NCBI RefSeq assembly: GCF_047495875.1
Contig: NC_092475.1
Location: forward strand, 15,474,001 to 15,538,000
Length of the DNA: 64,000 nt
DNA from: Pithys albifrons albifrons
Lineage: Eukaryota; Chordata; Aves; Passeriformes; Thamnophilidae
Direction: 5' to 3'
A model generated the notes under the pieces. The model searched no databases. It was not told the DNA's origin and saw nothing but the letters and a program-made list of their open reading frames with translations. Shown piece after piece: positions 28,101 to 34,100 of the stretch (positions are counted from its first letter, which is position 1; every line of letters starts with the position of its first letter). A program made the translations under genes and the position numbers.

Positions 28101-31100
28101 ACAGCTGTTTTGGTGTATCCCTTAAACATCAGCTTTGCCAGCTGTGTGTGAGGATTAAGTACAGAGTGTGTGTGGGAACATAAATCTTTTGATCAAATGC
28201 TGGCTAGTATTGTGGTAATTCTTTCTTCATTGCGATGGAGAGCGATGTTCTTGTTCTCTATTAAGAACAGGTCAGATTTCTGACACAGCCTGATCTTTGT
28301 GACAGTTTTGTTAAAAATAAGGGCAAGTGAAAGCAGCGTCTCACCCCTGTAATTATTTAAATGGAAGTAGCAAATGCAGCAAATAGAAGCAGCAAAATAG
28401 GAATTTGTGGGTGTTGCTATTCACGAGTTTGATGGCATATACACAAAAGCAAAACCATTTTCTGTGAGTTTTAAAAGTTCTTCCTTTCTGCCTGCTGTGG
28501 TCCATAAATATTGGACAGTTCATTTGCGAAGAAGTAGTCAGGGAATAACCCCATACAGCCTCCTGCAGTATTGGAGGGTTCTGTTTGCAGCAGCACAACT
28601 CTCTGGGCTGCCCACGGTGAATCTTGGCCAGTTGTAGAAAACCCTTGTGTAAAGAGGTTTGTTTTAAGCCATACCATGCTGTGAACTAATAACAAAACTG
28701 ATCCTAAATGTAGTTCTCTTGGCATGGCTGTGAGGGGGAGCAGGAGCAGGAGGGAGGGGAGAGGAGCTGCATGGGGGTGGCAGCTGCTGAATTCCCTGCA
28801 GCTCTCCATGTGTACTGGTCTGAAGGAAACCCTGCACTGGGAATCTGCACCCTGTGTTCTGCACAAGAGTCTCCTGCCTTGGCCTCCCTGGCACGATCCA
28901 GTTGCTTTTGGGTGATGTGCAAACATCAGAGTTGTTGAGAGAAGGGGGAATGGAGTTCAGGCAGAAGGGGTGGGAGTTGCTTTGTGGTGTGTGCAGAAGG
29001 GCTGGGATGGGTTGGAAAGGATGAAGGGAGAGAAGGGGGCACAGTCATTAGGGTATCTTGTTTCCCCATTAAGGCACTGGAGTAGGACATGGTGCTTCCC
29101 ATTTAGGTGACTACTTTAGGCCATAGTTCACCTGGCTGGTTGTACCGGTTTTCCATTTATACCAGTGGAAGATCCCTAGTAGATCCAAATAGTCCAAAAA
29201 GAACCCTGTCTCAAATTCAGATATCTAGCCATTGACTTTGACATCTTTATCCAATCTTGTCCCATTGTCCTGAGGAGAAGGCTGTCCCTGTGCTTTATAC
29301 TGGCATAACATCAATTTCTGGGTTTCTAAAGGCAGATCTTAGAAAGAGCTTTTGAATCTGTGTGTCATGTGAGCTTCAGCAGGGGAGGAGGCAGCTGCTT
29401 GTAGCTGTTTCTTAGTTGCCTGCTTCTGGAATTCTTGTGTTCTGCAGTCTTGGCATGGATTGTTAGAAATGCTCTTTATCAGTGGTTTTGTGGAGAGCTA
29501 AACATATGAGACACCATATCTCACCATGGTTGCTGTGAGCCATAGCTATTAGTATATTTTTATTAGCAAATGCATTGCTCTTTTGCATTGTCTAGTTCTG
29601 AAGCTTTCGTGCTCATTTAAACATGACTGGTTATTAATGAAGTACTTCAATTTGGGTGGTATAAGGTGCAGAAAATGATAGACTTAACTGTTTCATGGAA
29701 ATTGCAATTTCCTTGTAAATTGATTGTATTGTTGGACTAATAAAAAGAGCATATTCAGAAAGTGCTTAGATAAGGAAGTTTTAATTGCTTCTTCCCATTA
29801 CCTCACTGGCATGTCTTGCACTGAATGATCTCGGATTTGCACATCTGGGCTGTGGAATATTGGGAGGTTTTTAATGTTTCTTTTAAATGTTTATTTACTT
29901 ATTTAATATTTTATATTTAAACCAGGGAAAGATTTTATTTAGAATTTTCACTGTGCATACTTTTAACGGGTGAGAAAGTGAATGTGTTCCTCTTTTTGAG
30001 ATTTGCCCTGGGTGTGTGTCTTTACTCCTGGGTTTCAGCTAGTGGTGTGGCCAACACCCCTGGCTCTGGTGGGGTTGGGGAGTTCAGCAGCACTGCTGCA
30101 AAGGTGTCAGGCAGAAGAGATGGGGCGGGGAACAGTGGCTGCTCCCCCTAAAGAAGGACAGCCATTGCCTGCTCCCCTGTCCCTGCAGGTGCAGTGTGCA
30201 TAGCCTGCTCCCTTGTCCCTTGCAGTGTCCTTGTCCTGCTCCCTGTCGCCACAGGTGCAGTGTCCCTGTCCTGCTCCCTTGTCCCTTGCAGTGCCCATGT
30301 CCTGCTCCCTTGTCCCTGCAGGTGCAGTGTCCATGTCCTGCTCCCTTGTCCCTGCAGGTGCAGTGTCCATGTCCTGCTCCCTTGTCCCTGCAGGTGCAGT
30401 GTCCATGTCCTGCTCCCTTGTCCCTTGTCCCTGCAGGTGCAGTGTCCCTGTCCTGCTCCCTTGTCCCTTGCAGTGTCCATGTCCTGCTCCCATGTCCCTT
30501 GTCCCTGCAGGTGCAGTGTCCATGTCCTGCTCCCTTGTCCCTTGTCCCTGCAGGTGCAGTGTCCCTGTCCTGCTCCCTTGTCCCTTGCAGTGTCCATGTC
30601 CTGCTCCCATGTCCCTTGTCCCTGCAGGTGCAGTGTCCCTGTCCTGCTCCCTTGTCCCTTGCAGTGTCCATGTCCTGCTCCCATGTCCCTTGTCCCTGCA
30701 GGTGCAGTGTCCATGTCCTGCTCCCTTGTCCCTTGCAGTGTCCTTGTCCTGCTCCCTGTCGCCACAGGTGCAGTGTCCCTGTCCTGCTCCCTTGTCCCTG
30801 CAGGTGCAGTGTCCATGTCCTGCTCCCTTGTCCCTTGCAGTGTCCATGTCCTGCTCCCATGTCCCTTGTCCCTGCAGGTGCAGTGTCCATGTCCTGCTCC
30901 CTTGTCCCTGCAGGTGCAGTGTCCATGTCCTGCTCCCTGTCGCCACAGGTGCAGTGTCCCTGTCCTGCTCCCTTGTCCCTTGCAGTGTCCATGTCCTGCT
31001 CCCTTGTCCCTGCAGGTGCAGTGTCCATGTCCTGCTCCCATGTCCCTTGTCCCTGCAGGTGCAGTGTCCATGTCCTGCTCCCTTGTCCCTGCAGGTGCAG

Positions 31101-34100
31101 TGTCCATGTCCTGCTCCCTTGTCCCTGCAGGTGCAGTGTCCATGTCCTGCTCCCTTGTCCCTGCAGGTGCAGTGTCCATGTCCTGCTCCCATGTCCCTTG
31201 TCCCTGCAGGTGCAGTGTCCCTGTCCTGCTCCCTTGTCCCTGCAGGTGCAGTGTCCCTGTCCTGCTCCCTTGTCCCTGCAGGTGCAGTGTCCATGTCCTG
31301 CTCCCTTGTCCCTGCAGGTGCAGTGTCCATGTCCTGCTCCCATGTCCCCGCAGGTGCAGTGTGTGGATCACGACAGCGATGGCTCCCATGATCTGATTGG
31401 CTTGGCGCAGACGACGCTGGCGCAGGTGCAGACGGCTGGCCCCGGCTCCCCGGTGAGCTTCTTCTGCCCCTGCTCACTTAATCCCCAATTCAGGCTTTCA
31501 CGAACCCTTCCTAACACTGACCTCAGAGATGCACTTTAAGTTGTTGCCTCCAAACATGAATATTTCTGTCTGTATCTTTATATTATTAAGCCAGCATCTG
31601 TGAAAAATGGTATGGGAATTACATTTCTTTATTTCTTTGGATTCTGTTACCATTCCTATTTCTAAAGGCATCCTTGAACCTGTTGTCTGCTGGTTGCCAG
31701 CCACTTTGCCCAGCAGTTCATCCTGCTTCAGCCTCTGCTGAGTCCAGTGGAAATAAAAGTGTTGGTGCTGTAACAGATGAGTCCAGAGGCACAGCTTGGC
31801 TTACATGTTTGTGCTGGAGCTGGTCACCCTCACAAGTGCTCTGGTTGCCTTGCCAGCTAACTGAGCAGCAGTCCTTCCAAGGGGCACTCTTCTTACCTTG
31901 TTCTAGTCATCCAGTCTAGAATAGATTGAGTCACATGCTGGTGCTGCTGGTTTGGGTCTATTGTCTGCAGTGAAAACCTGACATGTCATTCTCCTGGGGG
32001 TGTTTCACCTGAATTCAGGCAGATGTATTCACACATAGGGTATAGCCCAGGATGAGTCATGTGGCAGCCAGCTTGATTTTTGTGGGTATAATCCAAAGCT
32101 GGTGGAAGGTTCTTGCCTTTTTCCCTGGCCTGTGTGAAACCAAGCAGTTAAACACTGGTGCTGGGAGCCCATGGTCTGGATTTTCTGGCCTCCCTACCCC
32201 AAGATTTTGCCTCATCTGCCCAGTGCTGGTGGCAAAAGTATCCCATTTTTAGTTCATCAGACAGCAGCCAAAGTAGTTGCAGACCTTTTCAAAATTAAAT
32301 TTCTGAATTCTGCTGGGTATTTGGGTAACTCTAAAATTGTGTGATGTGTGACTCCATTCTGTTTCCATAATTTGTTCTGCTGTAAGTGCAGGCATTTTGG
32401 AACTTGATTCTTCCATGCTGTCTTTCTGTAGGTAGAATTTGAGTGCATTCATCCTGAGAAAAAACAAAAGAAAAAGAGCTATAAAAACTCTGGCATTATT
32501 AGGATAAAATCCTGCAAGGTAGGAAGATCTTTGTTGGGGTTCTTTTGCTTTTTTGTATTCTGATCATAATGAAATGGTAGGTGTAACACTGTCTGTCTGT
32601 TCCTGTAGATTGAGACAGAATATTCATTTCTGGACTATGTGATGGGAGGCTGCCAGATTAACTTTACGGTGAGTTGTTTCCCCACTGCTTGTCTTGGTGG
32701 ATGACAGGATGAGCAGTGAGGCTGTGTACTTTCATTGGCAACACGAATGACTGCAAATGCAGTGTGAGTTTACCGTGACGAAGACTGCAAAACCCAAATA
32801 CTACTATATCTTTACTTTTTGTGGTCTAGTAGCACTTTAATGGAGCGCTTCTTAAACTTCTTTTGAGAAATTGGTTCAATCTGTCAGTGGAAAGGTGGGA
32901 AAAGGGATGCAGGCTTGTGTGCCTGTTCCTGTGTAGGGCTGCTGTGTGCCTGGGAGGAAGGGAGCTGTGTGGGCCTGAGCCAACCCTGTTCCTGGATGTG
33001 GTTAGTTCTCCTATTTGCTTGTGGTGACGTGTCAGTGACTTGCTGCCGTCATCTTGACTGATTAGGTGGGTGTAGACTTCACTGCCTCCAATGGAGATCC
33101 CAAGTCACCAGATTCTCTTCACTACATCAGCCCCGATGGGATAAATGAGTACCTGATTGCCATCTGGAGTGTGGGAAGTGTAGTCCAGGACTATGACACG
33201 TATGTAATGATCTGGAGCAATCCAGTCACCTCACCAAAAGTGTGTCACAGTGGATCAATGCTCATAGCTTGTTCCAGACTTGTTGCATTTTAGTGACTGA
33301 GGGGCTGCCTGTCCTTGGGAGATCCCTTAAGGAGCTGCTACTGATTCCTCTTGTTTCTGTCAGTGCCAGGGCAGGCAATGTCAACCCTTCATAATTTGGC
33401 ATCCTTGCTTGGCTTGTCCCTCCTGCTCTACCCTGGGTCCCTCACTGCAGCTTTAGTTGGTTACTGCTCTCTCGTTGCTGATGGTGCATTGCAAACCTGA
33501 ATGTCTTATTTGATTCAATGGGAACATGTTTGTCTGCTCTGCCCCGTAGCCAGGCCGGGGTTGGTCTGGCTTTTCTCCTGCTTCAAAATCTCCCGAAAGT
33601 CCTGTCAGCTGCTGCACTGAAGGAAATTCTGTAACTGTCGAGGCCAAGCCTGAAACCCTTGGGTACCTGGTGCCTGACCATGGGCAGCAAGATGATGTAC
33701 CAATTCCTTATGGCAGGAATTCAGTCTTGGTCTCCAGCTGCTTTCCGTGAATAAAACAGAATTGAGTTACTAAAGAATTGCTCTTTCTCATTTCTTGTTG
33801 TTGCTCTTTCTTTCCAGGGACAAGCTGTTTCCTGCGTTTGGGTTTGGAGCTCAGGTTCCTCCTAGCTGGCAGGTAGGGCCTTCTCAATGCTGGACACTTG
33901 TTCTGTCTATGTCTCCATTCCCTAACTGTAATGTCCCCTTTCCCAGGTATCTCATGAGTTTGCTTTGAACTTCAACCCCAGCAACCCTTATTGCCAAGGT
34001 GAGGACACCTCTTTGTTAATAATGTCACTGAGAGGGACAGATGTTGGAAATGTTGTTATTTTTTAACTGGTGAAAATCAGATGCAGCACCAAGACATGGG

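Follow-up and report, generated by a model that had tools for sequence, protein, structure and literature searches.

How the splicing machinery would choose the last of a long row of near-identical acceptor sites is the question raised by exon 7 of the copine-1 gene, CPNE1, in the bird Pithys albifrons albifrons. The DNA analysed (the window) is a stretch of 64,000 nucleotides (nt), positions 15474001-15538000 of a 15.6-Mb contig, in which intron 6 of CPNE1 ends in a minisatellite whose unit contains the acceptor of exon 7. The answer that we favour, with a probability of roughly 60 %, is that the minisatellite was seeded by a duplication across the 3' intron-exon boundary at exon 7 and that its last copy wins by exon definition.

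Tandem Repeats Finder (TRF) located the array with a period of 36, 32.8 copies and a score of 1503, the consensus being 36 base pairs (bp) long. Splitting at CCTGCTCCC gave 33 units of 31, 35, 36 or 43 bp belonging to 11 kinds, and unit 33 is the true exon 7 acceptor. The array continues unbroken into the acceptor AG at 31352-31353 and nine bases of the exon. The sequence CAG/GTGCAGTGT, which is the acceptor followed by nine bases from the start of exon 7 (a slash marks a splice site), occurs in 25 units, namely 24 upstream units and the true site; three of the 24 have the ending CACAG. A short form, CTTGCAG/TG, five bases less than the 36-bp unit, is found in the remaining eight units. A preliminary description of this DNA had proposed a continuous array of about 33 units, and this holds if the true acceptor is counted; its statement that every unit reproduces the acceptor and nine exon bases applies to 24 of the 32 upstream units, but not to the eight shorter ones. 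The slight differences that it gave for the true site (CCCCGCAG, and GTGTGG after GTGCAGT) were correct. Within the array 57 AGs lie upstream of the true one, comprising 24 full acceptors, eight short acceptors, 24 second AGs within GTGCAG, and one other. With many copies of high identity and a unit inside the range of about 10-100 bp the array is a minisatellite, and its unit includes a splice site that belongs to the neighbouring exon; the duplicated piece spans the exon boundary and carries AG/GT. Recent turnover of the units is implied, because there are only 11 kinds among 33. The first unit (30168-30203) reads GTGCAGTGTGCATAG, and the remaining units read GTGCAGTGTCC. GTG CAG TGT GCA fits the exon 7 start VQCA of most other birds listed, the species studied here having VQCV, and the outermost unit may preserve an older start of exon 7.

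Table 1 Coordinates in the window of CPNE1, its minisatellite and associated features
Feature	Positions	Strand	Properties	Basis
CPNE1 coding region	23315-39096	+	15 coding exons, 534 amino acids	
CPNE1 exon 6	26390-26479	+	donor AAG/GTACAG	
Probable decayed alternative exon 7a	30032-30127	+	VSASGVANTPGSGGVGEFSSTAAKVSGRRDGA	tblastn, ungapped score, edges
Minisatellite	30168-31362	+	33 units; last unit is the true acceptor and first 9 exon 7 bases	TRF, unit list
Four nearest full decoys	31210-31353	+	first bases 31210, 31246, 31282, 31318	gene model, unit list
Likeliest branch-point adenine of true acceptor	31329	+	position -25, GTCCAT	inferred from 28-nt AG-free stretch
CPNE1 exon 7 (7b form)	31354-31452	+	99 nt, phase 0, starts VQCVDHDSDGSHDLIG	gene model, homologues, Pfam C2

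The genome searched has 1,144,288,329 bases in 53 contigs. The core 17-mer of the array, CCCTGCAGGTGCAGTGT, had 21 matches in it, all within the array, and the reversed control had none, so a chance origin of the array is ruled out. Some 122 kb separate the array from the end of the contig. Twenty sampled 10-kb pieces (200 kb) of the same contig were screened for tandem arrays with a period of at least 7 and a span of at least 150 bp, and three pieces held one, the longest single row being about 655 bp. GC-rich minisatellites are not rare on the contig, and none of this array's length was present in the 200-kb sample. Two of those found lie at positions 2159-3926 of sampled piece L027 and 2563-3153 of L025, and that in the third piece, L014, is looser. 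Within the window, a second GC-rich tandem array (43490-43677; period 16 to 34, GCTCTGTGCAGTGCCGGA) lies outside the CPNE1 coding exons.

The gene had been named as CPNE1, and this was borne out by the 15 exons (Table 1), which joined to give an intact copine-1 with C2 and Copine domains (Pfam). The closest protein matches were Grallaria varia (95 %) and Oxyruncus cristatus (93 %). An exon 7 acceptor lying elsewhere would have undone the proposed arrangement, and the placement at 31352-31353 stands, supported by the intact model and by the exon 6/7 join, KPIK/VQCVDHDSDGSHDLIG, which is that of the closest relatives (e.g. proteins P0001-P0004), where exon 7 joins exon 6 directly, without an insert. 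The donor of exon 7 is at 31453. Exon 7 encodes residues 211-243 and the C2 stretch covers residues 144-236, which is the second C2 domain, and to this extent the proposed location of the first codons in the C2B calcium loop is supported by Pfam. The Asp-rich start of exon 7 would be the loop itself, to judge by C2 domains in general.

All acceptor and donor scores given here come from a simple, hand-written position weight matrix. The true acceptor scored 8.3, 21 of the 24 full decoys scored 10.6-11.4, and the remaining three scored 8.07. The true-site score was reached by 29 of the 57 upstream AGs in the array and by 20 of 870 CPNE1 intronic AGs outside it. The true site is thus not distinguished by its strength, and the choice among near-identical decoys, as raised in the preliminary description, is a real question. 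The true AG is preceded by 28 nt that are free of AG and that, besides the A of the AG itself, have As only at -25 and -12, so the branch point is most likely A31329, with an A a few bases farther upstream as a possible alternative. An A located 19-32 nt upstream without an intervening AG was found for 20 of the 25 full acceptors, the true one counted, and therefore whole acceptor modules were copied. The 28-base AG-free stretch with one well-placed A leaves fewer ways in which the last copy could be chosen. A branch point far upstream followed by scanning to the true AG was rejected, since scanning would encounter 57 other AGs before the true one, which has just 28 AG-free nt in front of it. 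The scanning rule for AG choice, and the bypassing of AGs very near a branch point, are described in PMC1431707. Folding of the last units together with exon 7 gave nothing special (z 0.57; 141 of 200 shuffles folded at least as well).

Splicing to the four nearest full decoys would add 144, 108, 72 and 36 nt, in frame and stop-free, encoding (VQCPCPAPLSLQ)n, and the next five full decoys upstream (31167 to 31016) are out of frame. The reading frame is kept by 24 of the 57 upstream AGs in total, and by 10 of the 24 full decoys; none of these in-frame sites leads to a stop. Out-of-frame decoys run into a stop in exon 7, no more than 40 nt from its start, with the exception of two AGs in GCAGGTGCAG of the first unit, which reach a stop inside that unit. 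On the + strand all three frames of the array are open; this openness is therefore a matter of composition and gives no sign of selection. Selection for frame was rejected on this ground, and with just 24 of the 57 AGs being in frame.

A further feature of the locus is that exon 7 is one of a pair of alternative vertebrate exons, 7a and 7b. Among 129 fetched copine proteins 84 have 7b, 29 have 7a (e.g. VSVSDMDDSTSSDLIGEFTCITAKLLEARDHV), six have both in series with 7a first, and ten have neither, as classified by patterns that were written after viewing the sequences and of which one was fitted to the degenerate sparrow model P0120. Within single species of Emydura, Pyxicephalus, Brienomyrus and Paramisgurnus 7a and 7b occur as isoform pairs, which indicates that the exons are alternative and probably mutually exclusive. 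Birds are represented among the 29 7a proteins only by quail P0019 and sparrow P0120, and of these two only the quail has a well-preserved 7a. The best 7a match in the window starts at 30032, on the same strand and in the same phase as exon 7. The full-length ungapped 7a score was compared with 1000 dinucleotide shuffles of intron 6, of which 0 reached it for the turtle, 0 for the sparrow and 2 for the quail peptide. By tblastn against a 5.1-kb intron piece, E was 8.7e-5 (sparrow), 0.002 (turtle) and 0.058 (quail); P0033, among the seven 7a peptides used, had no match in that piece. The segment at 30032-30127, its end being set by 7a of relatives, which is 96 nt long, is a probable copy of 7a in which Asp residues are lost and usable splice sites are lacking. 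The copy is dead, because GG stands in place of AG before it and no GT follows it, and no intact 7a was found in the window. About 40 nt separate its end from the array, which, if the remnant is 7a, fills the former spacer of the exon pair. If only the 21 intronic bases of the last unit are counted, the spacer from 7a to 7b would be about 61 nt, as reckoned from the present window in place of the ancestral spacer. A spacer as short as about 61 nt would permit mutual exclusion of the steric type.

From these features the following course of events is proposed. A tandem duplication across the 3' intron-exon boundary at exon 7 would have produced a second acceptor module, which slippage or unequal exchange would have enlarged and which would then have been homogenised in the 7a-7b spacer. 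This growth possibly came after the loss of 7a had ended the need for a short spacer, and the array most likely has no selected role. The last unit has its own candidate branch-point A at -25, a pyrimidine tract and an AG, and is the copy closest to the exon 7 donor. Under exon definition, U1 at that donor together with U2AF and U2 at the closest acceptor would favour the last unit, which defines an exon of 99 nt, the next ones upstream defining exons of 135, 171, 207 and 243 nt. Use of the decoys would be low. The near ones would be tolerated, since units 29-32 add just 12 to 48 residues in frame, and out-of-frame decoys would yield early stops in exon 7 and presumably decay of the mRNA.

Several observations weigh against this course of events. 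With 21 of the 24 full decoys equal to or exceeding the true site, strength cannot explain the choice of the last copy. The proteins of relatives are mostly predictions whose intron DNA was unseen, and their direct exon 6/7 join is no proof that decoys go unused here. A profile of 11 7a peptides run against intron 6 was matched or beaten by 76 of 1000 shuffles, its top score in the intron falling in the open frame where the 7a remnant lies; the decisive evidence for the remnant was the full-length ungapped score.

Other readings of the array were considered alongside last-copy choice by exon definition. Tandem arrays are often mis-sized in assemblies, but 33 units of 11 kinds in irregular order, at a single locus of a 15.6-Mb contig and in a window without N, make it highly improbable that the array or its copy number is an assembly artefact. 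If the array is real, its many strong decoy acceptors could act as sinks of the U2AF or PTB type, or as dead ends, and so lower the inclusion of exon 7. The result would be an in-frame CPNE1 without exon 7, as the exon is 99 nt long and in phase 0, and five of the 129 relatives' models do join exon 6 to exon 8 (P0017, P0023, P0051, P0066 and P0067). These models may be annotation products, however, and come from species whose introns were unseen, and such an effect on inclusion is considered unlikely. It is similarly doubtful that the near decoys are used regularly and insert a functional (VQCPCPAPLSLQ)n of variable length into the second C2 domain of copine-1. As this would require, reading from the four nearest full decoys keeps the frame and meets no stop, but a unit of 36 nt has a one-in-three chance of being divisible by 3, farther upstream the frame is lost, with 14 of all 24 full decoys out of frame, and the insert would fall at the start of the segment for the Asp-rich loop. 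No protein with the repeat peptide was found: CPNE1 carrying the last four repeat units in frame gave 244 candidates in the protein collection, none with E of 10 or below. The motif CPCPA was seen in fetched protein P0026, at its N-terminal end, and is unrelated to the repeat.

A recursive ladder was also considered, in which splicing to a decoy regenerates AAG/GTGCAG and the product is spliced onward to the last copy, so that errors would correct themselves. GTGCAG follows all 24 full decoys, and the regenerated donor is one base from that of exon 6, scoring 4.37 versus 4.71, with natural CPNE1 donors scoring as low as 3.69. Weak regenerated donors are re-spliced in Drosophila upon removal of the exon junction complex (PMC8184009), and a potato gene drew its donor from a copied exon segment (PMC4974935). 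Set against this, the exon junction complex normally represses regenerated sites, GT is lacking in eight of the 32 upstream units, and 36-nt units are below the usual size of a vertebrate intron, so each jump would have to cover at least two units. Moreover, the true exon 7 start is identical in sequence, and re-splicing might therefore skip exon 7. Such a ladder is thought improbable here. Its fullest version, in which any AG/GT unit serves as an entry, descent proceeds stepwise to the exon-definition copy, and decoys are harmless through being both acceptor and donor, is very unlikely.

The array is a minisatellite of acceptors that combines the types seen in human IFI6 and in the potato RNA-dependent RNA polymerase (RdRp) gene, and is not a new mechanism. 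Unit size and copy number of the IFI6 minisatellite are reportedly smaller than those of the CPNE1 array. As described in PMC4526556, which cites Turri et al. (1995), the human IFI6 (6-16) minisatellite contains multiple splice donor sites, and near units are used alternatively in mRNA. In IFI6 as in CPNE1 the repeated unit is a splice site from an exon boundary; the two differ in that the IFI6 sites are donors with proven use in mRNA, whereas those of CPNE1 are candidate acceptors. In potato RdRp (PMC4974935) an intron was gained by tandem duplication across an intron-exon boundary and the new intron is found in transcripts. The copied piece has, as in CPNE1, a branch site, a pyrimidine tract, an acceptor, an exon start and an exon-derived donor, but one duplication is described there, compared with 32 extra copies of about 36 nt in the DNA of CPNE1. 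Recursive splice sites (PMC8184009) share the AG/GT that regenerates a donor after splicing; in CPNE1 this is putative, the donor half (GTGCAG) being weak and tandemly repeated. The intronic minisatellite CeRep25B of C. elegans is likewise enriched beside alternative exons, but carries regulatory motifs in place of splice-site copies (PMC4039745). In the open-licence literature only a passing co-mention was found for CPNE1 and minisatellite, and nothing on the subject, by titles and opening lines, for copine and mutually exclusive exons.

Two further observations concern CPNE1 and its surroundings. Models from Cyanocitta (P0005, P0026 and P0065) and Mionectes (P0014) continue beyond the exon 6 donor, at 26480-26520, and their read-through (VESSGILFVV.., VQPSEILFV..) matches the start of intron 6 in the window; an alternative exon 6 donor in passerines is possible, as is an annotation product. 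A long open frame on the + strand at 3905-6640 looks like RBM12, and some bird CPNE1 models among the homologues also carry the name RNA-binding protein 12.

More than 20 near-identical acceptor modules, spaced 30-120 nt apart, thus stand before one exon of a conserved gene and provide a clean natural experiment on the choice of the last acceptor among many equal ones, be it by site strength, nearness of the donor or re-splicing. The locus also suggests that the death of a mutually exclusive exon may free the spacer for a minisatellite. If the length of the array varies among individuals, decoy use would be directly measurable against copy number.

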